Origin: Herpetosiphon aurantiacus DSM 785
Lineage (GTDB): Bacteria; Chloroflexota; Chloroflexia; Chloroflexales; Herpetosiphonaceae
NCBI GenBank assembly: GCA_000018565.1
Contig: CP000875.1
Span: 2,743,199-2,807,198, forward strand
Length of the DNA: 64,000 nucleotides
Direction of reading: 5' to 3'
A program made the translations under genes and the position numbers. Positions 3,001 to 28,874 of the stretch are shown here, piece by piece (the first letter of the stretch is position 1; each line of letters starts with the position of its first letter). The notes under the pieces were generated by a model. It worked only from the letters and a program-made list of their open reading frames with translations. It searched no databases and had not been told where the DNA came from.

Positions 3001-6000
3001 CCACAAAGCCATCTTCAGGCTCGGCCAAACTGCGATCTACAATATCGATCGCCAAGCGATCGGAGGAATCCATATTTTTAATTACAATATCAACATCGTA
3101 GAGCAGCTTGGCAAGCGCTTCAGTCATGCGATCTTGCACCGTGCGCACGCCAAAAATTGCTAAAATCCCATCGACAAAATAGAGCATCAGGAAGAGGAAC
3201 GAAAAGATTTGGCCGATACCAGGTACATATTCCAAGGCAAACATCACCACCGTGATGATCGTACTGGCCAAGGTGTAGGCTACATAGACGGTGAGCGCAA
3301 TGCTGCCGCCCTCACCAGTCGTAATCATCTTCCAAAGCACACTACCCGATGTCGAGAGGAAGATGATCCAAGGTACAACTGTACCAAGCACCAAGCCTAA
3401 TTTACCTACCGCCTTAAAATTAGCCATGGTGGTCGATTTAAGAATTGCCGTTACGCCCATGCCACTCTGGTAGAGCGTATAAAATTTATGCATCATATTG
3501 GCGATATACAAGCCAACCCCAACAATCGTGGCCGCATTCAGGATATAAATGCCCGCTTGGAAGGTTGTATCATCGCCAGTCAGGTAGCCAACTGCAAACA
3601 AGGTTGCGCCAACTGCCAAGCCAATTGTGGTTATGCCGATTAGGCCATGCAAGGCCATGCTCTTTTTGTTTTGCAGCAAGCGCTCAAAGGAAAAGGTATA
3701 TTGAGTAAAACTCTTTTTGTAGGCATGGTTGATCACGCTCCAGAAGCTATAGCCGCTGTAGCCCATGGCTTTGTATTTAGCAAATTTGCTCACCGATTCG
3801 ATGATTGTGTTGAGGTAGGCCGAACCAATAAAGGTAAAGCCTTTGGGAGTCGATGAGGGCCAAGCTGGGGTATAGGCGCTTTCAGGAACCTCAGTGCTTT
3901 GCGTCCAAAGCAGATCACCATCGCTTTCGATGCTCTCCGAGAGGCCTTGCAACAAAGCGGCATAATAACTTTGGCCCCAAATTTGCTTGCCGCTGATTTC
4001 ATCGAGGCTTGTGCTTGAGCCATCGCCTTGAAAAAATTCATCGCTGGTCAACAGGGTGTTCAGCAGCAGCAAATATTGCTCAGGATCGTAATTGCCCCAA
4101 ACGCCATCAGTATATTGATACGGTGCCCAGCTCATGCTAGCTGCGGTCACCAACGGCACTGTATCAGCGTCAAAATCAAGCGCAATTGCGGCGCTAGTGA
4201 TGGTGTTGTCATCAACATTGACCGAGCGGCTGCGATGTTCGCTGGCAAATAACAACGTTGGATTGGTTTGGTTGGCATAGGGTGTGAACACACTATCAAG
4301 CAATTCGGCAGTACGGGTGATCGTCAAATCTTCAACATAATCGTCGTTATGGTCATAACTAAAGCTTTGAACTGCTAAGCTATGATTGGCCGCGCCGCCT
4401 GCCCAGCCATCAATGCTACTCGCCAAATTGCTGATTGTCACATCGCGGCTGCCGTTGCTGCTGCATGTGCCACTGCCATTGATGCTTGAGCAATCGCGAC
4501 CGCGCAAAAAGCTGTTGCTCATGTTCCAGCTGGCAACCCACAAATCGCTATCCAGCGCGAGATTGGTATCCTCAGTCGGATTTTCATAGACAATCGCTGT
4601 ATCGGTGCCATGCTCCTCGGTCACGGTCAGGCCAGCCAATTTCCACTCATCGTAATAGGTTTGGATGATTGCGTAGCTGTCTTCGCAGGTGCTGAGGTCG
4701 GTGTCGTCTGTGCAGCTATCGGTCAACATTTCGACCAACCAAACCAGCCGAACTTCATGGGCTGCGCCCCACGTTGCCAGACCGTTGCTGCCTTGGCTCG
4801 GTTGATAGAACATCCGCGCCGCAAAGCCAACCACTCCACCATCGCTTTCATCGGAAACATAACTGACTGGGAGATAGGCCAAAAGGTCGCCATCGCCGCT
4901 GTTTGAATCGTAAACACTCAGATCATAACGATCAATGGCGCTACTATCGAGCCAGTTATCAACCGCCATCTCCAAACTACGATCAATCCCGCTGTAGCTG
5001 GCATTGATTGGCAAATTGGCGTAGTGGCCACTGGTGTAGGGCATGCGAATTTGCAGCATTGGCACAAGCCGAACATCGCCATTGGCAGCGTTAGTATCGC
5101 TGCTGCGCAAGGTCAGATTTTCGGTGTTAGCAAAGTTGGTTTCCAGGTGGCGCTGAATTTGGCCTGCACTGTCACCAGTTGGCCAATCGAGCACCGTGCC
5201 AAAATAATCAAGATGGTCAGCATTGGTTGGGGTAATTTGAAAATCAACATAGACCGGTTTGTTAGTTTCAAGTTGATTAATACTTAGTTCAAGTGGCGTA
5301 TCGCCATTGAAAGTTTGGGCAATCACACCATTGGGCGAATTATCAACCGCATCGTTGACCCCATCATTATCATTATCAAGGTCAAACACGTCGGGTGTGC
5401 CATCAGCATCAGTATCGGGGCAGGCTGCGCTTGGATCATAATCGCTGGAAATTTCAACCCATACTTGACACTCCATGCCATCGGTCAAGCCATCGCTGTT
5501 GCTATCAGTGGCGTAGGGATCGAGATACCATTGCGTGCCACCAAAGCTAAATCCCGCCACTTCCAATTGATCATCAAGCAAATCGCCATCGCTATCGGCT
5601 TCGTCGGGCAAAGTGCCAAGTTGATTAACTTCGATGCCATCGCTCAGCCCATCGCCATCACTATCAGTCGAGTCGGCGACCCCAATACAATCGTTGCTAC
5701 TTGAGCTAGCACTTGGACAAGCACCCCAAATTGCTTCATCGTAGTCGGTTAAGCCATCGCCATCAGTATCGGTCGTATCACTTGAAGCCAGCATGCTTGG
5801 CAACGCCAATTCTGGCCGTGCTTGCAATAACGCCGTTAAATCGGCATCGGGCAGCGCAACGTTGGGGGTCGTGCTACGCGGATTTTGATGGGGGTTCCAA
5901 TTGCTGGTTTGTTGGGCAGCGACGGCCTCGCTCAAAGCCTCATGCTGCGCACGTTGTTGGTCGTATTCAGCCTGCTCAGTTTGTTGCTCGGCAGCAAAGG

Positions 6001-7057
6001 CCGCCGTGAGATCAGCACGAAATAAAGGCATTGTCAGCAGTGAAATAATCACCAAGCCCACGGTGAAGGCATGAATTTTGCGGTTGTGCAAGCGCCGCAT
6101 CCACCAGCCAATCAGCGCCAGCACCAGCCCAATACTCACGATTTGCAACACCAACAAGCGCAAAGCTGGCAATTGTTCAGTTAATCGAAAGCTCAGCCAA
6201 TTGATTGGGTTGGCGCTAAAAGGCGTGGTCGCCAAGGCTAAACGGCTTTGATCGAACCCGCTGTAATCGCCAACAATCATGGCTGTCGAGCGACCTTGGC
6301 CTTGTTGCGCCGGAAATTCGAGGGTTAATGCGATGCGGCGGGGCAGGCCTGTTTGGTCGATCCAAATTTCGCCGTGGCCCTGCATATCGCGGTAGGCTCG
6401 CCCAGCATCGAGTACCACATGGGCTGGAATATTGCGGCTTGCGCGAATTTGGGCTTCGAGCATTGGCCCAAGTTTTTCAGCCAACGCTGTTCCATCAAGC
6501 TTAAAGCCATAATGCTCGTAGGTTAGGGTTAAATCGAGCGCTGCTCCAGCGGCTGTATCAAACGAGCGAGTTGCTTGGTCAAGCAATTGCACATCGTCAG
6601 CCCCGATCAAAAAGCTCAGCAAATTGCCGCTAGGCGCAATGCCGTTGAGATCTTGCAGATCGCCTGCTTGCCATGGCCCTAGCCCTTGGCGTTGCTCAAC
6701 CTTACCATCCAGTAGGCGCAACGAATGGGCTTTGGCTGGATTACGATCGGCACTATTCCAAAGCTGCATTTCAAGATAATTCGTGGTTGCATCAACTTGG
6801 CCTTCGAGCGCCAAGCGATCGATTTGTGGTTCGCGGCCAGCACTCGTGATCGCGGCAACTGGATAGGTTGTTTGCTCGATAGTCGCTTGGTAGCGATAGC
6901 TGCCACTGGCTCCGGCCAACTCCCATGCACGTTCGATCGCCGTTTGCGGCATTGCAGCCTGATCAAGCCAACCAAGCAAAAACGGACTGATCAGCAGTGC
7001 CAACAGAGCTAGCCAAGTTGCTCGGACAATCAACGAGCGCGATGATCGAATATGCAT
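1..7057 (-). CDS. Giant secreted/membrane protein with TSP3 and LamG repeats (3' end outside window)
   Basis: Open frame read from ATG 7057 past the left edge, so at least 2352 residues with no stop seen. A GGAGG sits 5 bases before the ATG. The N-terminus is a signal or anchor helix (MHIRSSRSLIV, then a Leu/Ala-rich stretch). A soluble domain follows, then two hydrophobic helices near 296-345. Asp-rich thrombospondin type-3 repeats (DSDGDGLSDG, DNDNDGVNDA) fill about 420-580. A globular part follows, then a cluster of about four or five hydrophobic helices near 1130-1300, and a second Asp-rich TSP3 block (DTDGDGLDDA, DSDGDGLDDG) near 1505-1630. Three LamG/concanavalin-like domains (AASFDGLNDY, VAFDGVDD, LLFDGSDDY) occupy the rest. 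TSP3 repeats normally bind calcium and LamG domains bind glycans or proteins, so a surface adhesin or scaffold is likely. The internal transmembrane cluster is unusual. Function is not known. Confidence 0.85.
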   Translation of the reverse strand, partial: MHIRSSRSLIVRATWLALLALLISPFLLGWLDQAAMPQTAIERAWELAGASGSYRYQATIEQTTYPVAAITSAGREPQIDRLALEGQVDATTNYLEMQLWNSADRNPAKAHSLRLLDGKVEQRQGLGPWQAGDLQDLNGIAPSGNLLSFLIGADDVQLLDQATRSFDTAAGAALDLTLTYEHYGFKLDGTALAEKLGPMLEAQIRASRNIPAHVVLDAGRAYRDMQGHGEIWIDQTGLPRRIALTLEFPAQQGQGRSTAMIVGDYSGFDQSRLALATTPFSANPINWLSFRLTEQLPALRLLVLQIVSIGLVLALIGWWMRRLHNRKIHAFTVGLVIISLLTMPLFRADLTAAFAAEQQTEQAEYDQQRAQHEALSEAVAAQQTSNWNPHQNPRSTTPNVALPDADLTALLQARPELALPSMLASSDTTDTDGDGLTDYDEAIWGACPSASSSSNDCIGVADSTDSDGDGLSDGIEVNQLGTLPDEADSDGDLLDDQLEVAGFSFGGTQWYLDPYATDSNSDGLTDGMECQVWVEISSDYDPSAACPDTDADGTPDVFDLDNDNDGVNDAVDNSPNGVIAQTFNGDTPLELSINQLETNKPVYVDFQITPTNADHLDYFGTVLDWPTGDSAGQIQRHLETNFANTENLTLRSSDTNAANGDVRLVPMLQIRMPYTSGHYANLPINASYSGIDRSLEMAVDNWLDSSAIDRYDLSVYDSNSGDGDLLAYLPVSYVSDESDGGVVGFAARMFYQPSQGSNGLATWGAAHEVRLVWLVEMLTDSCTDDTDLSTCEDSYAIIQTYYDEWKLAGLTVTEEHGTDTAIVYENPTEDTNLALDSDLWVASWNMSNSFLRGRDCSSINGSGTCSSNGSRDVTISNLASSIDGWAGGAANHSLAVQSFSYDHNDDYVEDLTITRTAELLDSVFTPYANQTNPTLLFASEHRSRSVNVDDNTITSAAIALDFDADTVPLVTAASMSWAPYQYTDGVWGNYDPEQYLLLLNTLLTSDEFFQGDGSSTSLDEISGKQIWGQSYYAALLQGLSESIESDGDLLWTQSTEVPESAYTPAWPSSTPKGFTFIGSAYLNTIIESVSKFAKYKAMGYSGYSFWSVINHAYKKSFTQYTFSFERLLQNKKSMALHGLIGITTIGLAVGATLFAVGYLTGDDTTFQAGIYILNAATIVGVGLYIANMMHKFYTLYQSGMGVTAILKSTTMANFKAVGKLGLVLGTVVPWIIFLSTSGSVLWKMITTGEGGSIALTVYVAYTLASTIITVVMFALEYVPGIGQIFSFLFLMLYFVDGILAIFGVRTVQDRMTEALAKLLYDVDIVIKNMDSSDRLAIDIVDRSLAEPEDGFVVSNSITYTMRVTNTLLYGTQYSASDANKASFLYTLDDEPVDYHDQISKGDMRGDWDAIGGHKIRLSRTIVSVDALDLDRVGTGINRSLDGLLYLNEAYQLPYTGCWLDAFSCSTETYGGSSELNIGASETLDILPSTLSEFYAMEWNDRGQLSFPSQRDHDGDGLFSVDAGGVDPDDLTRDADADLLLDTYELAQGTDPEAIDTDGDGLDDARELSLGTNPLLNDSDGDGLDDGTESTTGWLISYNDDAGNRSYTRVWSNPNVGDIDDDGLNDLQEFVYGFNPWVATDASLIDNLVQFADMDVSERDAAAVLLRFEESADASVFANSASSNNFSCASTTTCPIAAQTGRYGNAASFDGLNDYLQASLSLAPTAYTQAVWVYPTSTDSNFHGIVGYDGGILAQRAPSIYMFQAGRVQVGFGDGTNWNSLSTSGVVLSSNTWSHIATTFDGTTMRLYINGVEQANSAAAAGKVPYPIDTLRVGRIDNYFQGSIDEVSLFERALSASEVVALKDGRYNPNDLVVQPGAALSYSTSVTNTLATQGIHGNLLGTTSASDPVVTQPKIALRFEESDRKSGFSPASGESEAATCVGASCPASDLVSSTDRSVAFDGVDDQLAIGTLAYENAFQASTFSFKVKLNALPSADKTMSLIATESTQAYGLNVSVNSSGKLVVALNDVSPSLTGVITMATNTWITITINVNDKQLRVYQNGSLDSGLNNNVRLRLVVGAGTLGNSIDGASPLHGNLNDISIVNNNAETVFAFGFDEHNTNSLRTSFANTASGGSIVSCASTATCPSLTAGATHEGLLFDGSDDYLPLPATASSAAGTSGSFSFKLKLSALPASGSYYYLLDNACSSSAGAGYCLRAYIDSAGLVTLGLINRTSSSVAFGPFSTTAAGGFSGKLGSWVSVTISWSLAAAAGSTSNFAIATTHNGSTITATSSGTSTYWPLITTDSNARFGRRVGGTLPLKGALDDLVATSYNLSFDQPSFNVEQINRVNDGRV

Positions 7058-7207
7058 GGAACCTCCAGAGCCGTGATAGAGACGCAACACAACCAACCGC
7101 CACCATAGCTGAATATGGCAGAACTAGCCCAATTTGAGCAGCATGATCGTGTAAGAGTGATAATGTTTGGCGAGTATACAGCTTCACTGATTAATTTTTG
7201 AGTGCAA

Positions 7208-7290
7208 AATGTCATTATTTGGCGAAACTAGGGGGATGACATTTGTCATTGTTTGGGGCATGCGGATGGTGACATTTGGCACTGCTAGGG
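7208..7290. promoter_or_regulatory. Direct and inverted TGTCATT/TGACA repeats between divergent genes
   Basis: Three imperfect copies of a TGTCATT-TTTGG or TGACATTTGGCA-type motif lie about 30-35 bases apart. The middle one is a perfect palindrome, ATGACA-TT-TGTCAT, at 7236-7249. The position between the giant protein gene (-) and the two-component pair (+) fits binding sites for a regulator, possibly the NarL-type regulator encoded at 8927. That link is inference. Confidence 0.4.
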
Positions 7291-7302
7291 CACAAACGAC
7301 CA

Positions 7303-7311
7303 TGCTATAAT
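7303..7311 (+). promoter_or_regulatory. Extended -10 promoter upstream of histidine kinase gene
   Basis: TGCTATAAT is a perfect extended -10 element (TGnTATAAT). No good -35 is visible 17 bases upstream, as is usual for extended -10 promoters. It would drive the kinase/regulator pair through a leader of about 290 bases that contains the hairpin repeat at 7352-7530. Confidence 0.5.
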
Positions 7312-7351
7312 GCCCTGAGGGTTGTCAGATTTTTTGCAACGCTTGGTACGA

Positions 7352-7530
7352 CCGCACCCCCTAGCCCCCTCCTTTCAAAGGTAGGTTTTAATAATGGTTG
7401 GGTAGGATCTAGAGTCGATGTTCATGCCCTCACCCCCTAGCCCCTCTCCCGCCGAGCGAGGCGAGGAGGAACCATCCCAGCATGATACCCCTCTCTCGCC
7501 GCAGTGGGAGAGGGGTTGGGGGTGAGGGAA
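7352..7530. repeat. Dispersed hairpin repeat element, copy 1
   Basis: A C-rich arm (CCCTCACCCCCTAGCCCCTC, about 7428-7447) faces a G-rich arm (GGGAGAGGGGTTGGGGGTGA, about 7506-7525) across a GAGCGAGGCGAGG core. It is preceded by AAAGGTAGGTTTTAA. Related copies lie at 38410-38565 and, shortened, at 41778-41825. It has no coding capacity and looks like a REP/MITE-like intergenic element. Confidence 0.7.
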
Positions 7531-7606
7531 CGGTTGCCATACCAAATCACTTGAAATCAATTCGTGACGAGAAGTGGATAACCCACCAGCACTGCAAGGA
7601 ACGCCT

Positions 7607-8923
7607 ATGTTATTCCAAGATTCAGCTAAGCTTCGACAATCAGCAGAAACTCAAGCAATACCCATCCCTAACCACACCCATGAAGCTGAGCAATTCAGCG
7701 GTGGCCTATCGATCAAACGCATCCTACAAATCGTGGCCTTGCTCTGGATTAGCTATTTTTTAATTTTAACGGGCCTTGATTGGGTTTCGTTGATGTCGCG
7801 ACCTGATACCAGCCCCTTGCCATGGTTCTACTACGCGATTCATATCACCTTGGCGGGAGTTGTGTTTGGTTTAGCAACTTGGGATGCGGCTCAACAGCGT
7901 TTGGGGCGGGTATTTATGCCCTTGATCATTGGGCTGATTTCGGTTGTGCCCATTCTGCTGACCCCATTAATTACCAGCGGGCCAGGCCCAATTACCACTG
8001 AGCCAGGTTTAGTCGTGATGCGTTTGTGCCCGATGCTGTGTGTGGCAGTGGTGATTGTGGCGTGGCAATATACTTGGCGACAGGTGGTTTGGTTTTGTTT
8101 GGTAACTGGGGCATTAATTTTGCTGCCAATTTTGCTCCGTGCCCCACGTTTTAGTTCAGCGGTTGCGATCACAATTGTCCAAACCAGCACGTTTTTGGTG
8201 TTTGGCTATGCGCTATCAGCCTTAGTGCAACGTCTGCGGCTGCAAAATGCGGCCTTGATTCAAGCCCATGAGCAGTTGCGTGATTATGCTGGTACTCAAG
8301 AGCGGTTGGCAATTAGCCGTGAGCGCAACCGCGTAGCTCGCGAATTGCACGACACCCTGGCCCATGCCCTGAGCGGCTTGATCGTGCAACTTGAGGCTGC
8401 CAAACTCTACCGTGAAATTGAGCCGACCACCAGCCATAAGCTGCAAGATTCGGCGCTCGATGCCGCCCGCCATGGCTTGCAAGAAACCCGTTTAGCGCTC
8501 AAAGCCCTCCGTGCCCGCCCGTTGGATGATTTAGGCCTAGCCCTAGCATTACGTCAACTTGCTGAGCAACTGGCAAGTACCGCGCAGCTTACGCTTGATC
8601 TATCGATTTCGCCGAAACTGCCACCCCTAGCCCTAGAAGTTGAAACCTGTGTTTATCGGGTTGCCCAAGAAGCACTGCGCAACGCGATTCGCCATGCCAA
8701 TGCCAACCGTTTAGATGTCAGCTTAACCTGTATTGATACCGAATTATGTCTAGTTGTCCGTGATGATGGCTGTGGCTTTGAATTCCAATCATTCTCTACA
8801 GCAGACCATTTTGGCTTAGCAGGAATGCATGAGCGAGCTGCTGAGTTGGGCGGCCAGCTGAGCATCAACAGCCAGCTTGGGCTGGGCACTTGGGTCGAAT
8901 TACGCTTTACAACAAAGGGTTGA
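7607..8923 (+). CDS. NarL-family sensor histidine kinase (HisKA_3)
   Basis: Membrane sensor kinase that should phosphorylate the response regulator encoded 3 bases downstream. ATG 7607 is preferred over an in-frame GTG at 7574 because AAGGA lies 6 bases before it. The product is 438 residues. About six hydrophobic helices fill roughly residues 35-205 (for example SYFLILTGLDWVSL). A dimerisation/phosphoacceptor region follows with H-box ARELHDTLAH; the phosphorylated His is about residue 248. The C-terminal HATPase domain has an N-box (ALRNAIRHANA), a G1 box (VRDDGCGFEF) and HFGLAGMHERAAELGG. There is no obvious extracellular sensor domain, as in the DesK/LiaS type, so the signal may be membrane state or a small ligand. 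The ligand is unknown. Confidence 0.93.
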   Translation: MLFQDSAKLRQSAETQAIPIPNHTHEAEQFSGGLSIKRILQIVALLWISYFLILTGLDWVSLMSRPDTSPLPWFYYAIHITLAGVVFGLATWDAAQQRLGRVFMPLIIGLISVVPILLTPLITSGPGPITTEPGLVVMRLCPMLCVAVVIVAWQYTWRQVVWFCLVTGALILLPILLRAPRFSSAVAITIVQTSTFLVFGYALSALVQRLRLQNAALIQAHEQLRDYAGTQERLAISRERNRVARELHDTLAHALSGLIVQLEAAKLYREIEPTTSHKLQDSALDAARHGLQETRLALKALRARPLDDLGLALALRQLAEQLASTAQLTLDLSISPKLPPLALEVETCVYRVAQEALRNAIRHANANRLDVSLTCIDTELCLVVRDDGCGFEFQSFSTADHFGLAGMHERAAELGGQLSINSQLGLGTWVELRFTTKG

Positions 8924-8926
8924 GCA

Positions 8927-9583
8927 ATGATCAAACTATTAATTTGCGATGATCAGGCGGTTGTGCGCGATGGCTTGTCGATCATGTTGAATCTCGCGCC
9001 TGATCTTGAGGTGATTGCCGTCGCCAGCAATGGCCGCGAGGCGGTGCAGCTTAGCGCAACGTGGCAGCCAGATCTGATTTTGATGGATCTTAAAATGCCG
9101 ATTATGAATGGAATCGAGGCCACGCGCCAAATTAGCGCAGCCCAACCACTGGTTAAAATCTTAGTATTAACGACCTACGACGATGATGAATGGTTGTTTG
9201 AGGCAATTCGGGCGGGAGCAGCAGGCTATTTGCTCAAGGATATGGCGCATAGCGATTTGGTTAGTGCGATTCGCGGCACAGTTTCGGGCAAAGCCTATGT
9301 TGATCCCAATGTGACGGCCCGCCTGCTCAGTCAAGTTGCCACCTCGCGCAATCAACCACCAGCCAGCCAATTAACTGGCCGCTTGACCGAGCGTGAGCTG
9401 GCAGTGCTCAATTTAATTGCCACAGGCCACACCAACGCCAGTATCGCCGAACAACTCCGACTTTCTGAGGGCACGGTGCGTAACCACGTCAGCACCATTT
9501 TATCCAAGCTCGATGTCGCTGACCGAACGCAGGCCGCTCTGTTGGCAGTGGAACATGGCTTGCATCAGCGCGACCATTATTAA
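8927..9583 (+). CDS. NarL/LuxR-family response regulator
   Basis: Transcription factor, 218 residues, partner of the adjacent kinase (3-base gap, certainly one operon). The receiver domain spans about residues 1-120, with acidic pocket ICDD, phosphoacceptor Asp54 (ILMDLKMPIMNG), Thr in VLTTYDD and Lys in GYLLKD. The LuxR helix-turn-helix lies at about 150-212 (LTERELAVLNLIATGHTNAS, LRLSEGTVRNHVSTILSKL). The family binds DNA as a phosphorylated dimer. Its likely targets are nearby: the repeats at 7208-7290 and the peptide gene at 10057. Neither is proven. Confidence 0.95.
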   Translation: MIKLLICDDQAVVRDGLSIMLNLAPDLEVIAVASNGREAVQLSATWQPDLILMDLKMPIMNGIEATRQISAAQPLVKILVLTTYDDDEWLFEAIRAGAAGYLLKDMAHSDLVSAIRGTVSGKAYVDPNVTARLLSQVATSRNQPPASQLTGRLTERELAVLNLIATGHTNASIAEQLRLSEGTVRNHVSTILSKLDVADRTQAALLAVEHGLHQRDHY

Positions 9584-10056
9584 AAATCCCTACAATGCTC
9601 CTTATTCAACAGCCCGCCCCACGATCCATTATCCAAACGCTAACTCCAACTCATATTTGATATACAAATGTGGGTAAATCTGGGGCTAGCGTTTTGATTT
9701 AACGCCCCAATTCGTCGTCAATTTCTCACACCCTCCTCGCTATAGAAGTAGTCAAGCTCCAGCCATCAAATCATTACTACCCAGCAAAAAAGGGATAACA
9801 AAAATATCCCTTTTTTAGGATATTTCCACGCCTGAGCTTTTTGTATAGTCAATTCATCGAGATTGAACTGCAATCAAATGACAATACATCCCGGGGTATT
9901 TCACAGGCTTGCAAGCGCGATCTCGGTCAATTGAAACGGTATTCGGCAAATCGTTTACTTGGCTGATTGAAATAGTTTGATTGATTAAAAACAGAAAAAT
10001 CCTATCAAGAGAATACAATCATCAAGTAGCAGTCAACATCAAAGGAGTTTCAGGCT
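9584..10056. other. 473-base region upstream of the small peptide gene
   Basis: No convincing gene. It holds inverted AACGCTA/TAGCGTT segments at about 9636-9642 and 9688-9694 (possible weak terminator for the regulator gene), the strong A/T hairpin at 9786-9816, and then an AT-rich leader. A candidate -10, TACAAT, lies at 10014-10019 without a clear -35. An AAAGGAG ribosome site is at 10041-10047. Confidence 0.5.
9786..9816. terminator. Bidirectional-looking hairpin with A and T tracts
   Basis: A perfect 12-base stem, AAAAAAGGGATA / TATCCCTTTTTT, around a 7-base loop. Flanking A and T runs let it act as an intrinsic terminator on either strand. It lies 200 bases after the response regulator stop and 240 before the peptide gene, so it probably separates the two units. 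An operator role cannot be excluded. Confidence 0.6.
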
Positions 10057-10185
10057 ATGGTATTGCGTAAATGGATTTCGTTGCTGCTCATTGTGGTAGC
10101 CTTGACCGGTGGAGTAAGCTCAATTAACCTCAATCATCGCGAAACCCCAACCGATTGTGACCCAACCGGCTGTGGTGGTGGCTAA
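10057..10185 (+). CDS. 42-residue secreted peptide precursor
   Basis: A small gene read directly from the sequence: ATG 10057, TAA 10183-10185, with AAAGGAG 9 bases before the ATG. Translation is MVLRKWISLLLIVV, then ALTGGVSSINLNH, then RETPTDCDPTGCGGG. It starts with two positive residues and a roughly 15-residue hydrophobic core, a typical signal peptide. The remaining tail of about 15-20 residues is polar with two Cys five apart and a terminal Gly triplet. A strong hairpin terminator follows 8 bases after the stop, so it is its own transcription unit. No maturation enzyme or exporter gene is adjacent. It could be a signalling peptide, a bacteriocin-like peptide or a modified peptide precursor. 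The two-component pair upstream is a possible sensor (inference). I do not recognise a family. Confidence 0.72.
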   Translation: MVLRKWISLLLIVVALTGGVSSINLNHRETPTDCDPTGCGGG

Positions 10186-10193
10186 AATTCAAA

Positions 10194-10224
10194 CGCCCCT
10201 CGCCCAATCAAAGGGCGAGGGGCG
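10194..10224. terminator. GC-rich terminator hairpin between convergent genes
   Basis: Perfect 12-base stem, CGCCCCTCGCCC / GGGCGAGGGGCG, with a 7-base loop. It sits between the peptide gene (+) and the 10235 gene (-). There is no long T tract on either side, so efficiency is uncertain. Confidence 0.65.
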
Positions 10225-10234
10225 TAGATCGAAT

Positions 10235-10630
10235 CTAGGCCTCTGATCGATTAATCGCCTCTTCGACGAAACTGATAATTTGCTCAACTGGAATATTAAA
10301 AACCCCGGCTTTGCCTTGCACGAAGGCCTCACGCCATGATTCATAGCCCTCAAGGTAGCTTGGGTTATCCACATTGGTATCGACTAGCTCGGTTAAACTT
10401 TGCTCAAGGCTAGCCGCGACGACTGGAAAATGACCAAGCTGGGTGAGTGGCTCCTCACCATGCGGATTTTTGACCTGCACTCCAGCAATGCTGATGTGGA
10501 AGATCGCGCCCAAGCCGGAGTGATACTCGATTTTGTTGATCAAAATTGCCGATTCTGGCTCGTTGGGGCGGGTATGGTAGCGCCAAACTTGGCCTTCACT
10601 AAAATAGTAGGCGTTTGCGGCTTCGCTCAT
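10235..10630 (-). CDS. Conserved hypothetical protein (VWRYxTR motif)
   Basis: 131 residues from ATG 10630, chosen because GGAGAGGA lies just upstream; a longer frame would need a TTG that falls inside that ribosome site. The protein is soluble, has no signal peptide, and begins MSEAANAYYFSEGQVWRYHT. It contains VWRYHTRPNE, IFHISIAGVQVKNP and LEGYESWREAFVQGKAGVFN. I recall similar short bacterial proteins with the same order of motifs but no assigned function. It is last in a three-gene unit with the two DUF1877-like genes (27-base gap). A role in an immunity or accessory cluster is possible, not shown. Confidence 0.8.
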   Translation of the reverse strand: MSEAANAYYFSEGQVWRYHTRPNEPESAILINKIEYHSGLGAIFHISIAGVQVKNPHGEEPLTQLGHFPVVAASLEQSLTELVDTNVDNPSYLEGYESWREAFVQGKAGVFNIPVEQIISFVEEAINRSEA

Positions 10631-10657
10631 AATCAAGTTCCTCTCCAAAAAATAATT

Positions 10658-11224
10658 TCAGCTAATATACCAAATAATTGACTCGTTAGCAGCATGCGCT
10701 TGTTGCGCCATTATGCGAATACTATCAAGACAACTCAGCACTACATTGTAAACACCTTGTTTTTCCTCAACCGTCATATCGGTAAATTCAGCAAAATCAG
10801 CATCAAAGGCTTGTTTAAGCTGCTCATAGGGAACGTGTTGCAGCAAATCCAGCAGTGGCGCAAGCTCATGATGGAAAATAAGGTAGATATAACTGTAACA
10901 AGGCCATAAATCACCAATATGAACTGGATAGTCCTCGTGAATTGGCCACCAATCAACAACTTGATCGCGAATAAGCTGAACCATCAAGTCTTCCAGTAAC
11001 GACCAATAGCTTTTCTCGATTGTGAATTTGTAATAAGCCTGCTCAGGACTAAGTTTATCCAATGGCACCATTGTATATTGTTGCAAGTGGCTACGTCGAT
11101 CAAGCACCTGATACAGTTGAGGAGAAATCTCTGCGTATGATAAACTACTATGCTCGATGGCAATTTGCTCTAGCTCAGCAAGTTGTTCGGCGGTTATGCG
11201 AACGAACGATTGACGAACACCCAT
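10658..11224 (-). CDS. DUF1877-like (YfbM-type) hypothetical protein
   Basis: 188-residue soluble protein from ATG 11224, with AAGGT and GAGGA upstream. The start MGVRQSFVRITAEQLAELEQ matches the typical DUF1877 opening (MGxxxxxxRhTxxQLxxLxx). The C-terminal half, with VHIGDLWPCYSYIYLIF and PLLDLLQHVPYEQLKQAFDA, is all-helical and ends in an aromatic tail, as in that family. DUF1877 has no established biochemical role. The neighbouring upstream gene has the same beginning and the same layout (49-base gap), so the pair is a diverged tandem duplication. Family assignment is by motif memory only. Confidence 0.75.
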   Translation of the reverse strand: MGVRQSFVRITAEQLAELEQIAIEHSSLSYAEISPQLYQVLDRRSHLQQYTMVPLDKLSPEQAYYKFTIEKSYWSLLEDLMVQLIRDQVVDWWPIHEDYPVHIGDLWPCYSYIYLIFHHELAPLLDLLQHVPYEQLKQAFDADFAEFTDMTVEEKQGVYNVVLSCLDSIRIMAQQAHAANESIIWYIS

Positions 11225-11273
11225 ACCTTAGTTCCTCTAACTACAACGTTTCAGCCTAAATCATACGAACAAC

Positions 11274-12167
11274 CTACCAGGTATACCACACCAACCAATC
11301 TTGATCGCGAGCGGCTTGCTCAAACAATAAGATCAATTTCTCTACCATCCTCGATTCCCAACAAAAAAATGGCATAAGCAACGCATCATTCCGTTCGCGA
11401 TTCATAAGGCGTTGCATAAAAAAATAGCGTTTAAACAATCTGGGTGGTAGCTGCTTGAGGGCATGCAAATACAATGGAACTTCAACCGCCTGCAGACGAT
11501 ACACCGTACTGTAAACAAAATGTAAATCGCCAATGCAGGCAGTCTGATGATCATCTTCAGCAAAGATCTTAATCGGCCAATCGGGTAGTTTTTGTTCAGC
11601 AACCAAGGTTTCCATGCACGTTTCGACAGGTTCCCAAAGATGTATCGTTGCACTCAACGCATAATAAGCCTGTTGTGGGTCGATATCCGTGGTAGCAATA
11701 TAGCCTAAATCGGGGCCTTTACGTTGCTCCAGTACCGCAGAAACTTGTTTATATACTTCATTAATATCAGGGTACGTGGGATAATCGATTGGTTCAGCGG
11801 CTGCATAATAAGCTTCAAACGGCGCAGAGGTTGTTAATTGCGTGTGATCAGTGGGGTCATAATAGGCCTCAAACGGTAAAAAATACGATAAGAGCGGATT
11901 ATCAGTCAGTTCTCCACTTGACATCCCAAGCATCACACTCTGATCAGGTAAGCTCGCTGGCGCAAGGTAGTCATCAAGCCATGGATTTCCAGTCAATTCG
12001 GGGGTATCAGAAACGTGCTCAACGCGAAAATCATCAGCCTGTTCATAGATTTCAGCCGCGCAAATTGAGGCACTGGCCTGATTCTCCTCGTGCAAGCGTG
12101 CGGCACACGCTTCAAGCTCTAGCAGTTGTTGGTTGGTAATTCGCGTAATTGTTATATCAAAGCCCAT
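11274..12167 (-). CDS. DUF1877-like protein with an inserted central segment
   Basis: 297 residues from ATG 12167, with AAAGGTG six bases upstream; an in-frame GTG at 12176 overlaps that site and is less likely. It begins MGFDITITRITNQQLLELEA, like its neighbour. It then has an extra acidic, Pro/Tyr-rich stretch (about residues 45-125) in which PFEAYY occurs twice (LPFEAYYDP, APFEAYYAA). After that it matches the shorter paralogue: DPQQAYYALS against SPEQAYYKFT, IGDLHFVYSTVYRL against IGDLWPCYSYIYLI, WLVWYTW against SIIWYIS. First gene of the three-gene minus-strand unit. Function unknown. Confidence 0.75.
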   Translation of the reverse strand: MGFDITITRITNQQLLELEACAARLHEENQASASICAAEIYEQADDFRVEHVSDTPELTGNPWLDDYLAPASLPDQSVMLGMSSGELTDNPLLSYFLPFEAYYDPTDHTQLTTSAPFEAYYAAAEPIDYPTYPDINEVYKQVSAVLEQRKGPDLGYIATTDIDPQQAYYALSATIHLWEPVETCMETLVAEQKLPDWPIKIFAEDDHQTACIGDLHFVYSTVYRLQAVEVPLYLHALKQLPPRLFKRYFFMQRLMNRERNDALLMPFFCWESRMVEKLILLFEQAARDQDWLVWYTW

Positions 12168-12299
12168 TGCTATCACCTTTGGCTTTTAGAACAAATGTTC
12201 TATTTTGTGTACGCGAATTATAGCATAACCGCTATGAATGTGCACAGGTTTTGGTATGCGCAACCACCAGAAGACGATCTTAATACCGAGGATTAAAAA

Positions 12300-12335
12300 A
12301 ATCCGCCAGATCGAGCACTATCGATCTGGCGGATT
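12300..12335 (-). terminator. Terminator of GH19 chitinase gene
   Basis: Perfect 15-base stem (AATCCGCCAGATCGA and its complement) with a 6-base loop. On the minus strand it is followed by a run of six T, the classic intrinsic terminator form, 14 bases after the chitinase stop. Confidence 0.85.
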
Positions 12336-12349
12336 GGCATGCACTTAAT

Positions 12350-13645
12350 CTAGCAGTAAAGGTTGTTGCCTGGGCTTACGCCAAGAATGTTGGTAATTGT
12401 TTGATACGAACTGACACGGCTTTGAACTTGGCCCGGATTGCCACCGTTGCACTCCAACGAGCCGTTGATGCTGCGGATGGTTTCGCCGAAGCCATTGCCA
12501 TTGACCATGGCATCGTGCGGAGTCATCAAGCCTGGGCCGCGTTGGGTCATCCAATACCACAAGGCGGTTTTCCAAGCCACGGCGGGGTCACGCGAGACCA
12601 GATCAGGATCGTTCAGCAAATTCAGGCCCAATGCTTGGCCGGCCAATCCATAATTGTAGTTCCAGCTCAATTGAATTGGGCCACGGCCAAAGTAGCGTTT
12701 GCCAGGGGCACACGGCCATTGAGCGCTATTTTGGCAGTATTCACCTTGAGCAATTTCAGTCACATGGACAAAGTTGCCAGTTTCGTGGGCGAAGTTGGCC
12801 AAAGCAGCGGCAGCTTCGCGCTTGCGAGTTTCGGTCGAGCCAGTGCCGGCAAAAGCTGGGTAGAAGGCTGCGGCCTGTACCAGACCTTCATAGGTGTAGA
12901 AGGGATTGCGATTGGGGAACATTTGATCGAATTGGGCTTTACTAACGATCGAACTAAAGCCCGTCGTTGGTGGTGGGTTGGTTCCGCCACAGGTGGTTGG
13001 CTCCCAGAACCACGTGCTGATGGTTGGGTCGTAGCCTGGGTTATCGTGCTCGGCTACATAAAAACTGCCGTTGTAGCGCACAATATTGCCCGTGTAATAT
13101 TGACGGCCAGCCACCCAATCGCTGTAGTTACAGGTGCTTGGTGGTGGCGTTGGAGTTGGTGGTGGAGGATTGGTTCCGCCACAGGTGGTTGGCTCCCAGA
13201 ACCACGTGCTGATGGTTGGGTCGTAGCCTGGATTATCGTGCTCGGCCACATAAAAACTACCGTTGTAGCGCACAATGTTGCCCGTGTAATATTGACGGCC
13301 AGCCACCCAATCGGTATAGCTACAACTGCCGCCGCCACCTCCACCACCGCCGCAACTTGTCGGCTCCCAATACCATGTACTAACGGTTGGATCATAACCG
13401 GGATTATCGTGCTCAGCCACATAATAATTGCCATTGTAGCGCACGATATTGCCCGTGTAATACTGCTTACCTGCAACCCAATCGGTAAAATTGCAACTCT
13501 GAGCAAGGCTCGCCTGTGAATTAGCAAATGATTGACGCGCCATCCCAGCCTGTGGATTGACCATGCTGCCCCAAAATGCACTAATCAAGAGTGGTGCTAA
13601 CAACAACTTGCTTAGCCTTGATGGGTTCAGGTGTGGAAATTTCAT
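12350..13645 (-). CDS. Secreted GH19 chitinase with three chitin-binding modules
   Basis: Hydrolyses chitin outside the cell. 431 residues from ATG 13645 (GGAGAC upstream). Signal peptide about 1-37. Three near-identical carbohydrate-binding modules of the CBM5/12 type lie at about 51-98, 108-155 and 172-220, each WVAGxQYYTGNIVRYNG...YVAEHDNPGYDPT...WEP. They are separated by Gly-rich and Pro/Thr-rich linkers. The GH19 domain covers about 230-431, with AHETGNF (Glu288, general acid) and Glu297 (VTEIAQG, general base), then YFGRGPIQLSWNYNYG and INGSLECNGGNPGQVQSR, as in Streptomyces ChiC-type bacterial enzymes. Modules 2 and 3 are nearly identical in DNA (about 12985-13137 and 13177-13320), so the duplication is recent. 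A clear promoter and two palindromes lie upstream. Confidence 0.95.
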   Translation of the reverse strand: MKFPHLNPSRLSKLLLAPLLISAFWGSMVNPQAGMARQSFANSQASLAQSCNFTDWVAGKQYYTGNIVRYNGNYYVAEHDNPGYDPTVSTWYWEPTSCGGGGGGGGSCSYTDWVAGRQYYTGNIVRYNGSFYVAEHDNPGYDPTISTWFWEPTTCGGTNPPPPTPTPPPSTCNYSDWVAGRQYYTGNIVRYNGSFYVAEHDNPGYDPTISTWFWEPTTCGGTNPPPTTGFSSIVSKAQFDQMFPNRNPFYTYEGLVQAAAFYPAFAGTGSTETRKREAAAALANFAHETGNFVHVTEIAQGEYCQNSAQWPCAPGKRYFGRGPIQLSWNYNYGLAGQALGLNLLNDPDLVSRDPAVAWKTALWYWMTQRGPGLMTPHDAMVNGNGFGETIRSINGSLECNGGNPGQVQSRVSSYQTITNILGVSPGNNLYC

Positions 13646-13673
13646 GGGGTCTCCTTAATCTACGCTTCAATTG

Positions 13674-13691
13674 CCTAGCAACGTTGCTAGG
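13674..13691. promoter_or_regulatory. Perfect palindrome, LacI-type operator candidate
   Basis: CCTAGCAAC/GTTGCTAGG, an 18-base perfect palindrome centred on ACGT. It lies in the chitinase leader, about 45 bases downstream of the predicted transcription start. LacI-family operators typically have this CG-centred form. The regulator is not in this window. Confidence 0.55.
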
Positions 13692-13722
13692 ATTGAATTG
13701 ATTCGTATGTTCCACCTTTGTT

Positions 13723-13735
13723 ATTCCAGTGGAAT
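13723..13735. promoter_or_regulatory. Inverted repeat at the predicted chitinase transcription start
   Basis: ATTCCA-G-TGGAAT sits immediately downstream of the -10 of the chitinase promoter, a position where a bound repressor would block transcription. It is short and could be chance. Confidence 0.35.
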
Positions 13736-13742
13736 TATGAAG

Positions 13743-13771
13743 AACTTAACATGGCAAACAAGGCTTGTCAA
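13743..13771 (-). promoter_or_regulatory. Sigma-70-type promoter of GH19 chitinase gene
   Basis: On the minus strand: TTGACA (13771-13766), a 17-base spacer, TAAGTT (13748-13743). The -35 is perfect and spacing optimal. Predicted start is near 13736, giving a leader of about 90 bases. Confidence 0.75.
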
Positions 13772-13898
13772 GGGTTTTTCTTAACAAAAAGTTTAAATTA
13801 GTATAAATATGATTAAAAATAACTAGGAAGCTCTGCTTGATTAGGATTAAGCTATGGCAGACCTTAGGGCTTGATTGGAGGGGAATCGAGATGAAGGC

Positions 13899-13964
13899 TT
13901 TAACCACGAAGAACGCGAAGAAGCGCAAAGATCAATAGCTTCGTGTTCTTCGTGCTCTTCGTGG
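13899..13964. repeat. CACGAAGA-type inverted repeat, copy 1
   Basis: Arms TTTAACCACGAAGAACGCGA and CTTCGTGTTCTTCGTGCTCT form an imperfect hairpin. The same motif recurs at 14666-14770, flanking the other side of the lipoprotein gene at 14003. Short CACGAAGA/TCTTCGTG repeats of this kind are scattered in intergenic DNA of many genomes. Confidence 0.6.
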
Positions 13965-14002
13965 AGCATCAATCGCGATATCTTCGAGGAGTAGCTTGCG
14001 AC

Positions 14003-14515
14003 CTAATTGGATAAATCGATTGTTGTGCTATAGGTTTGCTGTTTGCTACAAGCGTCATCGAGAAAATAGGTTATATCAAGCTTGACCGTTTGGGTTGGGG
14101 AGACCATGCGATAGGCTGGTAGCATTTTGATTTCCCCTGTGCGATCAAGCAAATGTTTGCGCTCGCCAATATGCTGGTAGAGCGGTAAACCAATCGCCAA
14201 TGGATGTTCGTGATTAATTTTATTGCAGCCAACTTCATCGCACATTCCAGCAACAAAATTGAATTTATCATCAAGATAATGCGGCTGCATAATAAAATCT
14301 TCAAGCGGCAGCCAGCCATCAGCAGTCTGAATCGACAAGACTGGATCAGTTAAGCATGTTAGCTCATAGCCAGGCACAACAATCGCAATGTAATTAGGAA
14401 ATACTGTTACATGCTCGCCTGTCTCAGTGATAATTGGCTGCGGCTGGCTATTTTTTGAGTTTACACTACATCCGACTGTTAGTATCAGTAGAAGCATCCA
14501 TCCAAATCGGCGCAT
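14003..14515 (-). CDS. Hypothetical lipoprotein
   Basis: 170 residues. MRRFGWMLLLILTVGC is a lipoprotein signal with lipobox LTVGC, so the mature protein should be lipidated at about Cys16 and held on the outer face of the membrane. The remainder is a beta-rich domain with four or more Cys (LTCLTD, GMCDEVGCNK, DDACSK), possibly disulphide-bonded. No family recognised. It lies between two copies of the same dispersed repeat and between two chitinase genes, but no promoter sharing is evident. Confidence 0.8.
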   Translation of the reverse strand: MRRFGWMLLLILTVGCSVNSKNSQPQPIITETGEHVTVFPNYIAIVVPGYELTCLTDPVLSIQTADGWLPLEDFIMQPHYLDDKFNFVAGMCDEVGCNKINHEHPLAIGLPLYQHIGERKHLLDRTGEIKMLPAYRMVSPTQTVKLDITYFLDDACSKQQTYSTTIDLSN

Positions 14516-14665
14516 AGCTCGCTCCTCAACTGCTGATTAGCTTTTGGTGCTAACGCGGAGGTGCATGGGTTTGTTCCAATAAGTTTTTGGTTGATCCAAA
14601 CCAGTAAACCAGCGAATTGAGTTTTAACGCAGATGTGGAGAGCCATGAAACGACGAGGAATGCAA

Positions 14666-14770
14666 TTTAACCACGAAGAGCACGAAGATCGCTCAGGATC
14701 AATACCTTCGTGCTCTTCGTGGTTAAATTAATCACGATAGCTTCGTGACCTTCGCGCTCTTCGTGGTTAA
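14666..14770. repeat. CACGAAGA-type inverted repeat, copy 2 (perfect 22-base stem)
   Basis: Arms at 14666-14687 and 14706-14727 are exact reverse complements over 22 bases (core CCACGAAGAGCACGAAG), with an 18-base loop. A third, imperfect arm (CTTCGTGACCTTCGCGCTCT) follows at about 14741. It lies in the 304-base gap between the lipoprotein and GH18 genes; no gene is seen there. Confidence 0.75.
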
Positions 14771-14819
14771 TAAAATATCAACCCTGACCTCTGGCTCCTG
14801 ACTGCTGACCCCTCGGAGT

Positions 14820-16556
14820 TTAGCGCACGGTTAATTCGTGGATCGACCACCAACTGCCGCCGCCAGTGCTGGTGAGCCATACCCGCAGATAACGGCTATT
14901 TTGAGCAGCGAAGTTGACGGTTACTGCTTGGGTTGTACCAGTGGCAGTAGCTACGGTTGCCCAGCTATTGCCATCGTTGGAAACTTGCACTTGGAAGTTG
15001 CGTGGATAATCGCCGTAGGATGGGCCTGCATCAAGCGTGATTTGGCTGAAACTTTGGTTATTGCCAAAATCGACCCGATACCACTGGCCTGCTGCTTGGG
15101 GCAAGCCTGCGCTCCAACGAGTAGTGCCGTTAGTATCAATCGCGTTGGTCGTGCTGCCGCCTGCTTCGGTCGATGAAGCGCTGGTTGCCAACGCATTGCC
15201 ATAAACCTCGACTTCCCAGAGCGAGTAGCCCCACTCGGTGGCGCGAGTTGTGGCGTAGACGCGCAGATAGCGCCCAATGCCGGAAACTGCTAAATCATCG
15301 GTTGCGCCATCGCTATTGGTTGTACTATAGATCGAGCGCCAGGTATTGCCATCGTTGGAAACTTGCACTTGATAGGCGCGGCCAAAGGCGGCTTCCCATT
15401 TTAAAACCACTTGTTTGATCGCATACACCGCGCCTAAATCAACCTGTAGCCATTGTGGATCGCTCCATGTGCTCGACCAACGGGTGGAGCTGTTGCCATC
15501 GAACGCGAGATTTGCGCCATAGCTGCTATTTTCGGTTGATGAAGCAGTAGCGGCTTTGTTCAGGGCTAAATTGCCAGTTGGCGTGCTGGGTGTGCCAAGC
15601 TGATCGGCAATGGTTTTGAGCAAGGAATCGCTGCTGGTAACAGCCGTATCTTGGCTCAATTCCCAAATCATAATCCCACCGCCGCCCTTGCTTTTCATCA
15701 AATCGATTTTGGCGCGCATGGTTGGGCGGCCCGTGTAGTATTGGGTTGCGCCGCCATACCAGCAGCTATCGCTATCGGCTGAGCAACCACCAGCGCGTAA
15801 GGTGTTGTAGCCATACCAGCCTGGGCGAGCATAAAACGGCACGCCCAAGATTAATTTAGCCTTATTGCTAGTTTTGGTGCCCCAATAATCGAGCGATTGC
15901 TGAGCTAAACTATAGGGCGAATGACCAGCGCCGCCATCACCATCGTAGGCCATGAGCGTGATGTAATCCATAATTTCGATGGCATTGCTAGTTACGCCTG
16001 AGCCGCCAGCATTGGTTGCAGCGACTGCCGCAGTTAATAATTTGCCCGAGCCGATGCGATTGCGGATCGCCGACATCGTTTCAAAGTAAAAATCGCCAGC
16101 CTCAGGATATTCCCAATCAATATCAACCCCATCGAGATTATATTGGTTGACGAAATTATTGAGGTTATTGGCAAAATTCGTGCGATAGCTGGCGTTGGCG
16201 GCGATACTTTCGAAGGCACTATCATCGCCGTCGTTCCAGCCACCAACTGAAATTAGCACTTTTTTGTTTTTGCTATGAGCGACCGATACCAACTCTTGCA
16301 ATTTGCTGGAGTTTTCGATTGGCTTGAGGCTGCCATCGTTGTTGGGCAACAGAAAAGCATAGTTAATGTGGGTCAGTTTATCAATTTGAGTGCCGTTGAC
16401 ACTGCCTTGCCACGATGGCAAATAGCCCACAATTTTATAGGCGATTTGGGCTTGGGCTGATTTGGGTTGATCAAATCCAGCACCAAAACTCCCAGCCAGC
16501 ATGATCAGAGCCAACAGCAAATAAACCTTCATGCTCAAGGCGCGTTGACGATTCAT
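14820..16556 (-). CDS. Secreted GH18 chitinase with two F5/8C (CBM32-like) modules
   Basis: Endo-acting chitin hydrolase, 578 residues. ATG 16556 has AAAGGAG nine bases upstream. Signal peptide about 1-36. The GH18 barrel covers about 38-325, with KKVLISVGGW, the catalytic DGVDIDWEY motif (acid Glu149) and IMDYITLMAYD, then MIWELSQDT near its end. Two discoidin-like domains follow at about 330-455 (NLALNKAATASS...RWSS...QWLQVDLG) and 455-578 (ALATSASSTEAGG...RWSAGLPQAAGQWYRVDFG), expected to bind glycans. The second is closely similar to the module inserted in the upstream GH5 protein (SWWSIHE in both). It lies 78 bases after the GH5 gene, with a hairpin between; partial read-through is possible. 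Confidence 0.95.
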   Translation of the reverse strand: MNRQRALSMKVYLLLALIMLAGSFGAGFDQPKSAQAQIAYKIVGYLPSWQGSVNGTQIDKLTHINYAFLLPNNDGSLKPIENSSKLQELVSVAHSKNKKVLISVGGWNDGDDSAFESIAANASYRTNFANNLNNFVNQYNLDGVDIDWEYPEAGDFYFETMSAIRNRIGSGKLLTAAVAATNAGGSGVTSNAIEIMDYITLMAYDGDGGAGHSPYSLAQQSLDYWGTKTSNKAKLILGVPFYARPGWYGYNTLRAGGCSADSDSCWYGGATQYYTGRPTMRAKIDLMKSKGGGGIMIWELSQDTAVTSSDSLLKTIADQLGTPSTPTGNLALNKAATASSTENSSYGANLAFDGNSSTRWSSTWSDPQWLQVDLGAVYAIKQVVLKWEAAFGRAYQVQVSNDGNTWRSIYSTTNSDGATDDLAVSGIGRYLRVYATTRATEWGYSLWEVEVYGNALATSASSTEAGGSTTNAIDTNGTTRWSAGLPQAAGQWYRVDFGNNQSFSQITLDAGPSYGDYPRNFQVQVSNDGNSWATVATATGTTQAVTVNFAAQNSRYLRVWLTSTGGGSWWSIHELTVR

Positions 16557-16587
16557 TATCAGCTACTCCTTTAATTAATAGGTGGGG

Positions 16588-16619
16588 AAGCGCCACCAAT
16601 CGGCTCATTGGTGGCGCTT
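16588..16619 (-). terminator. Hairpin between GH5 and GH18 genes
   Basis: Perfect 13-base stem AAGCGCCACCAAT / ATTGGTGGCGCTT, 6-base loop, 15 bases after the GH5 stop. There is no T tract on the minus strand, so it may be a weak terminator or an mRNA-stabilising stem. Confidence 0.6.
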
Positions 16620-16634
16620 GCGAGGAGGCTACTG

Positions 16635-18656: not shown

Positions 18657-18735
18657 GCTGTTCCTCCTTGAACGATGATCTGCCTGTCGTACAACACTGC
18701 TTGGACAAGTCGGGCGCTCAATTGTTGGAATAACT

Positions 18736-18761
18736 CGGTATCGTTTCCGGAAACGATACCG
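18736..18761. promoter_or_regulatory. 26-base perfect palindrome, LacI-family operator candidate
   Basis: CGGTATCGTTTCC / GGAAACGATACCG, perfect over 13+13 bases. It begins right after the -10 of the glucanase promoter, so a bound repressor would block initiation. The size and CGTTTCC half-site suit a LacI-family sugar regulator, which would induce the gene when glucan breakdown products appear. No such regulator is encoded in the window. Confidence 0.7.
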
Positions 18762-18770
18762 ATAGCATGA

Positions 18771-18798
18771 ATCTTAACACAATTTAATACTTTGTCAA
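18771..18798 (-). promoter_or_regulatory. Promoter of GH5 glucanase gene
   Basis: On the minus strand: TTGACA (18798-18793), a 16-base spacer, TAAGAT (18776-18771). Predicted start is near 18764, abutting the operator palindrome, with a leader of about 105 bases. Confidence 0.75.
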
Positions 18799-19026
18799 GT
18801 TAATCCAATAAGCTAATGCTCTAGCAAAGCGTATGACTAACTGGCGCAACTAACCATGGCTATGGGTCGTGTATCAGAAACACTCAACCGTGGGAGTAGG
18901 GCAGAAGTCCTAAACCATAAGTTTATCGATCAAGGGGTGGTGTGGGAGTAAACACCTATATAGCCAGAGGTTATATCTCGCTATACTCTTTGCTATCCAA
19001 ACTCATCACAGCTATACGGGGTTGCT

Positions 19027-19827: not shown

Positions 19828-19843
19828 GCAATAGGGGATGATC

Positions 19844-20179
19844 ATGCGAAATATTCGTCTTGAAACAAGCAGTATCGATAATCAAGCGACATTAAGTAGT
19901 GCCTTGGATCGATTAATGGCCTATCCTGGCTGGTATCAGCGCGAATGTGAGCCATGGCTAGATTTGGTGAGTTATTTTGATAGCCAACATAGCCTACAGC
20001 CACATAAAACACGCAAAGCTGGGTTCGAGCAATTTATTATCGAGATTGTTGGCGCTGAATCCTTTTGGACAAAATACCCAAAATTAGCAAATCTTTTAAT
20101 TAAATGGATTGCCGATGTAAACAAACGGGCAATGCAGCGCTCAGGGCAGGCGATTATCCGATTAACGCTTTTGCCTTAA
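19844..20179 (+). CDS. Small hypothetical protein
   Basis: 111 residues from ATG 19844, chosen because AGGGG lies 6 bases upstream; the ATG at 19838 is too close to that site. Cytosolic, with no signal or membrane helix and helical character (TLSSALDRLMAYPGW, YPKLANLLIKWIADVNKRAM). It follows the 19027 gene by 16 bases and is probably cotranscribed. Its stop overlaps the stop of the convergent gene at 20176 by 4 bases. No family recognised. Confidence 0.7.
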   Translation: MRNIRLETSSIDNQATLSSALDRLMAYPGWYQRECEPWLDLVSYFDSQHSLQPHKTRKAGFEQFIIEIVGAESFWTKYPKLANLLIKWIADVNKRAMQRSGQAIIRLTLLP

Positions 20180-28867: not shown

Positions 28868-28874
28868 TTGGCGA

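Follow-up and report, generated by a model that had tools for sequence, protein, structure and literature searches.

The peptide gene and its surroundings

The window (the whole stretch analysed, 64 kb of a genome of 6,785,430 bases in three contigs) carries on its plus strand a gene for a HisKA_3/HATPase sensor kinase (7607..8923, its start being read as the ATG at 7607), followed by one for a NarL/LuxR-type response regulator (8927..9583), an intergenic region (9584..10040) and a small gene for a putative exported peptide (10057..10185). The last comprises 42 codons, starts with ATG and encodes MVLRKWISLLLIVVALTGGVSSINLNHRETPTDCDPTGCGGG; a ribosome binding site on the same strand, AAAGGAG (10041..10047), lies 9 nt before the ATG, exactly the arrangement of small ORF and ribosome site that the preliminary description had put forward. 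Residues 1–22 (10057..10122, plus strand) form a basic and hydrophobic N-terminus that reads like a Sec signal, and the signal peptide claimed earlier can thus be upheld as a judgement made by reading. The two Cys residues and the Gly triplet claimed for the tail are present; they belong to a C-terminal core, CDPTGCGGG (10156..10182, plus strand), located by pattern search and alignment. Beyond the stop codon there is a strong 13-bp hairpin (10193..10225; z −6.82), but its T-run is on the minus strand only and it would therefore be terminator-like for a convergent gene, so that a hairpin, though not a terminator of the peptide gene, survives from the original claim.

Upstream, the intergenic region offers no sigma-70-like site (a search of 9550–10300 found 0 such promoters, against 1.9 expected), and the GATACGTTT-type element considered below is absent within 160 nt of the start. 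Because 158 ORFs of at least 40 aa overlap positions 1–20000 of the window, the existence of the ORF at 10057–10185 is in itself no proof of a gene; judged on its sequence, it looks real. No family in Pfam or NCBIfam is significant for its product. Elsewhere in the same genome, a short minus-strand ORF (L278, G000:C1:6170636-6170743) has a hydrophobic stretch and ends in QTQVVCSFCGQ, with no Gly tail.

The kinase and the regulator are positional neighbours of the peptide gene only. Both members of the two-component pair described earlier exist, the LuxR-type regulator at 8927–9583 and the kinase, the latter lying outside the interval 8927–10185 in which the pair had been placed. Orthologs of the kinase are found in four of the five other genomes of the genus (89% identity in G001, 88% in G003, 76% in G004 and 76% in G002), the fifth, G005, having a distant paralog only. 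A whole-genome search with the family model found a family peptide 3′ of the regulator in none of the four genomes having the pair: the sequence there is unlike that of the window in G001, G002 and G004, and in G003 the bases matching window positions 9586 and 38600 are 14 bp apart. The left edge of the stretch absent at this place from G003 is thus at 9586..9587, the stretch running to about 38599, and this jump in homology indicates that the peptide gene was gained or lost together with some 29 kb of DNA. The suggested check, for the same peptide gene beside such pairs in relatives, accordingly had a negative outcome in all four; the neighbour that recurs in relatives is a gene for a TPR-CHAT protease.

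By reading, the 29-kb stretch (9587–38599) contains chitinase-like, glycosidase-like and glycosyltransferase-like genes, and no mobile-element gene was recognized by eye. Two minus-strand genes (10658–11224 and 11274–12176) have no Pfam match and are mutually related (E 7e-7 to 4e-6). Further along, a STAS protein, a SpoIIE-like phosphatase and an anti-sigma-type ATPase, read in a row on the plus strand (28463–30805), make up a partner-switch set, and a long minus-strand protein (33249–35603) has repeated GGG-N motifs that, again by reading, resemble trimeric adhesin head repeats. With respect to RiPP/bacteriocin-type helper genes, three genes downstream of the peptide gene gave no Pfam match (window locus only).

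A family of Pro/Gly-tailed peptides

A protein search of 41 genomes returned one clear relative of the window peptide (E 1.1e-5, 46%), in Herpetosiphon llansteffanensis CA052B (G005), and reading of its weak matches added another, in Herpetosiphonaceae bacterium OHK22 (G007). The degenerate pattern CDPTxCGGG is matched in 3 of 158 genomes of the class, the window included (reversed control, 0), each match lying in a short ORF that begins with a hydrophobic segment, at its C-terminus or no more than 3 residues away. A scan for the core in 84,980 genomes, a collection that may omit the window's own, gave ten matches, and only those in G005 and G007 end a short ORF with a hydrophobic start. Additional tails were found behind other TPR-CHAT genes, namely LDPGGSGGG (in the window's own genome, at 2.44 Mb), ADPGGANGGNGGG, ADPGGNGGG and CGNPLICGGGGG, and one member, in G005, has a tandem double core. 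Across a 10-row peptide alignment the core Pro is invariant, and there is little conservation outside the tail. The window peptide would therefore belong to an unannotated family of short, apparently secreted peptides with a Pro/Gly tail, DPxGxGGG; the family model scores it with E 3.2e-11, the peptide being itself a row of that model. The absence of the ORF from relatives had been named as grounds for rejecting it; family members were found, and the ORF stands. The earlier view of an unannotated and probably exported peptide, plausibly a signal or an effector, is in this respect supported.

A model built from ten peptides and run against the 158 genomes, CHAT genes being ignored, yielded at least seven new short Gly-tailed ORFs (in G062, G020, G051, G041:C687, G061, G049 and G007:C67); at most 42 candidates per genome were scored, and the member counts are thus a lower bound. 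All seven come from genomes that have a clade TPR-CHAT gene at E 1e-40, of which there are 27. The G041:C687 peptide gene is convergent to a clade TPR-CHAT gene, and that of G051:C117 to a 129-codon CHAT frame only. Those of G061 and G007:C67 share a contig with a clade gene that has no adjacent peptide, and the contigs of the G062, G020 and G049 members have no listed clade TPR-CHAT gene. Such members, away from clade genes, indicate that detached copies recur, the window copy being one of the kind.

A number of candidates were rejected. Ten places picked from the many matches to a one-mismatch motif in nine genomes were read and gave no family member, and none of 14 weak model matches that lie in short frames, 11 coming from the genus, combined a hydrophobic start with a Pro/Gly tail as in the family. 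A 39-codon frame in G001 with the Gly run YGPGGGGGGGG and a weaker start was left out of the counts, and a 91-codon model match in G024 has no Gly tail.

Within the tandem core of G005:C126, LDLACGNPIVCGGGGG, the two 16-residue repeats differ at 8 of 48 nt, all of them silent, and we have counted this in favour of the family as a probable sign of selection. The peptide copies of G001 and G003 are separated by 6 silent and 2 replacing codon differences. The cores of the window and G005 are identical in their residues with 6 silent differences, an agreement that follows partly from the construction of the search.

Association with TPR-CHAT proteases and a sigma factor module

The clade of TPR-CHAT proteases comprises 32 genes at E 1e-50 or better, 26 of which entered the adjacency count. 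An ORF with a Gly tail and a hydrophobic start, convergent to the protease gene and with its stop from 60 bp before to 300 bp after the protease stop, accompanies 10 of these 26, as against 0 of 166 control ORF ends (Fisher, 3.6e-10); the criteria were fixed after the first examples were known, and the ten positives are not all independent, as the G001 and G003 copies are near-identical. G005 and G007 are among the genomes in which the peptide gene is convergent to a TPR-CHAT gene, and 7 of the 10 positive TPR-CHAT genes are in Herpetosiphonaceae. The other 16 clade genes have no convergent peptide under the set criteria; G014 provides a weaker candidate, with a GTG start. Among the six clade genes outside the count, one (G041:C687) has the ORF and two have fewer than 200 bases behind the stop. 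Strong peptide hits and clade TPR-CHATs numbered 2/2, 1/1, 1/1, 1/1, 0/0 and 2/2 in six genomes of the genus, and this agreement was unchanged once weaker short-frame matches had been read. Of 400 genomes sampled from the phylum, 16 have a clade TPR-CHAT (E 1e-40), and each of these belongs to the same order as the window. No TPR-CHAT gene adjoins the window peptide.

The proteases appear to belong to a larger module. An ECF-sigma-like ORF is present at 11 of 27 clade loci and an inhibitor-like ORF at 14, several of the stretches being short; in Herpetosiphonaceae, 9 of 10 loci (all except G005:C79) have the two together. The sigma factor of the 2.44-Mb module passes the TIGR02937 cut-off. Two HxxxCxxC motifs are found in 12 of 13 inhibitor-like proteins (a fourteenth, a partial frame, is outside the count), and these motifs make it likely that the protein is an anti-sigma factor or sigma inhibitor: there is a weak match to RsrA (E 0.0057), besides which we take the protein to resemble zinc-binding anti-sigma factors. 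The module protease has both CHAT and TPR Pfam matches, and the catalytic His and Cys are present in all 27 aligned CHATs, one of which is an outgroup. PADLOC gave no match for four module proteins. A phmmer search with the L113 protease against PDB sequences, for homology to known RRNPP TPR receptors, gave 0 matches at E 0.01 even among CHAT proteins; it is thus an insensitive probe of such homology and has no bearing on peptide binding. The predicted structure of one protease, based on a two-row alignment (pLDDT 47.7), was set aside.

Two of these loci have further features. The TPR-CHAT gene of G005:C79 is a frame of 689 codons, shorter than its relatives, with no sigma or inhibitor genes nearby and a methylase and XhoI-type endonuclease pair directly upstream (L033:856-3360). 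At G007:C67, a small lipoprotein-like ORF (L117:10320-10454, minus strand) with no Gly tail is convergent to the inhibitor-like gene.

An upstream element is common to some of the peptide genes. It consists of GATA..TTT plus a CTCCT-like block, and is found 74–84 nt before 5 of 12 peptide genes (the weaker G014 candidate being one of the 12), the pattern having been derived from the tested sequences themselves, after the first examples. There are 6 matches in 716,354 strand-bases; five are at peptide genes, and the sixth is behind the G045 protease, in sequence that shows no intact peptide ORF. Taken alone, the 9-mer GATACGTTT has 7 occurrences in 226,173 bases from these loci, two of them at other places. 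The element is absent from the window peptide gene and six others of the 12, including G005:C79 and G007:C240. Of the seven peptides found later, that of G061 has GATACGTTT at −77, that of G049 has the full element at −81, and five have neither. In the window's own genome a version of the element is matched exactly only once, at the 2.44-Mb module's peptide; 33 matches deviate from it at one or two positions, compared with 22 in the reversed control.

A partner for the window copy can be suggested from the protease tree. Among 27 proteases (one outgroup), that encoded at 3.02 Mb in the window's own genome groups with G007:C67 (99/97), and both group with G005:C79 (84/85); the 3.02-Mb and G005:C79 CHATs are 37% identical. 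In this group the G005 peptide, whose gene adjoins that of the protease, has the core CDPTGCGGG, and the G007:C67 peptide, detached at a distance of 14.8 kb, has CTDPRGCGGG. As the window core is identical to that of G005:C79, the window peptide fits the 3.02-Mb protease group, and the surroundings of the 3.02-Mb module showed no peptide. It is likely, therefore, that the window peptide is a detached copy and has as its partner the peptide-less module at G000:C1:3024072 (about 3.02 Mb), 270 kb away. The tree gives moderate support to this pairing; a word comparison between the region upstream of the window peptide and that upstream of the sigma gene at 3.02 Mb gave a negative result.

Possible roles of the peptide

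The module has points in common with known systems. In Craspase, cleavage of the anti-sigma protein Csx30 by Csx29 relieves the inhibition of an ECF factor (excerpts of PMC10028731). Craspase/CASP (Csx29, Csx30 and CASP-sigma; type III-E CRISPR) shares with the module a TPR-CHAT protein with a His/Cys dyad and, at those loci that have them, genes for an ECF-type sigma factor and a possible inhibitor of it. Unlike Craspase, no Cas protein is present among 10 proteins scanned at two loci (G005 and G007; module proteins included), the inhibitor candidate has its two HxxxCxxC motifs, a gene for a predicted exported peptide is attached, and the NCBIfam Csx29 model scores 25.7 bits against a cut-off of 300. 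The likeness to RRNPP systems (Rap, NprR, PlcR, PrgX and Rgg) would lie in the combination of a TPR protein with the gene for a small secreted propeptide (beside 10 of 26 clade TPR-CHAT genes, not at the window itself), whose conserved part is at the C-terminus and once tandem-duplicated; the differences are that the module is in Chloroflexota, not Firmicutes, the TPR is fused to a protease, the genes are convergent and the core is Gly-rich. ECF54 sigma factors are associated with CHAT, subtilase and carboxypeptidase genes and proteolytic control has been proposed for them, and excerpts of the same source have ECF54 working without an anti-sigma factor and mention no secreted peptide, whereas the module has candidates for both (PMC8999054). 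A sigma–CHAT link is thus already published; in the parts of the literature searched (preprints and most subscription journals being outside its scope), we found neither a peptide attached to such a link, nor one of this type beside a TPR-CHAT gene, nor an account of what activates TPR-CHAT proteases outside CRISPR.

What is observed is the peptide family with its conserved core, its co-location and co-occurrence with TPR-CHAT proteases, the conservation of the catalytic residues in these and, for some members, an upstream element. The reading that we tentatively prefer, at a little short of an even chance, is that the orphan peptide is a signal feeding a TPR-CHAT/anti-sigma/ECF switch, a model borrowed from Craspase, in which Csx29 relieves ECF inhibition, and from the RRNPP systems. 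Every step of it, from export and renewed uptake through binding and cleavage to control by the sigma factor, is inferred, as is the pairing of the window copy: the short Sec-type peptide would be exported and its C-terminal piece would be the signal; this piece would be re-imported and would bind to the TPR portion of the protease; the peptide-bound TPR-CHAT would then cleave the HxxxCxxC anti-sigma protein, freeing the ECF sigma factor; and the latter would in turn drive some of the peptide genes.

Instead of an input signal, the peptide might be a secreted output of the sigma/TPR-CHAT module, with an antimicrobial, surface or predatory role. The GATACGTTT element ahead of several peptide genes would fit a sigma-driven target, and Herpetosiphon is described as a wolf-pack predator that kills by secreted substances (excerpts of PMC6210107), but the conserved core is very short and Gly-tailed. 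Moreover, the core type tracks the protease clade (it is CGNPxxCGGGG in that of G001, G003 and G005:C126), which is more in keeping with a ligand or a substrate than with a free effector, and we consider an output on balance unlikely. The convergent pairing with a caspase-like protease, and the hydrophobic N-terminal segment, would equally accommodate a small membrane-anchored protein that is cut or sensed by the TPR-CHAT, by a logic like that of the bacterial gasdermins, which are cut by caspase-like proteases. Gasdermins, however, are much larger than this peptide, the N-termini resemble, by reading, cleavable signals and not pores, and conservation is slight beyond the tail; such a target is improbable.

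The window copy in particular might be decayed and unexpressed, left behind when the module was lost from this place, given that it is detached, without the upstream element and inside a stretch absent from a sister genome. Its start, ribosome site, signal-like N-terminus, stop and core are nonetheless all intact, and the purely silent differences from the G005 core, subject to the caveat given above, also speak against decay, which we regard as very unlikely. The signalling loop with the adjacent kinase and regulator, as advanced in the preliminary description, has in its favour the common strand, the regulator–peptide gap of 473 bp and another regulator-like gene divergent from the G005 peptide gene. 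That gene, however, encodes another regulator, with Pfam matches that fall short of the cut-offs, and the locus has a TPR-CHAT gene as well; as the pair is retained without the peptide in four genomes, and its adjacency is linked to the 29-kb difference, genome comparison argues against the loop, and we give it hardly any credence. The divergent regulator-like gene in G005 precedes one whose membrane-protein product has a weak PDZ match, close to the end of the contig (L033:6080-7704), a locus that could be a second reader of the G005 peptide.

Returning to the switch, its fullest form would be an RRNPP-like circuit outside Firmicutes, in which a Pro/Gly peptide would gate a caspase-like TPR-CHAT receptor, such that the anti-sigma factor is destroyed, the ECF sigma factor freed and the peptide genes driven. 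We consider this form speculative and rather doubtful; if it is true, the Craspase of CRISPR would represent a single variant of a more general scheme, triggered by RNA where the module is triggered by a peptide. A peptide gene tied to a TPR-CHAT gene provides, in any event, a candidate trigger or product that is synthesizable and directly testable. The hosts are multicellular gliding predators, in which peptide signals between cells seem little known in the literature searched, and our analysis suggests that the module peptide may be a new kind of cell-to-cell signal in gliding bacteria.
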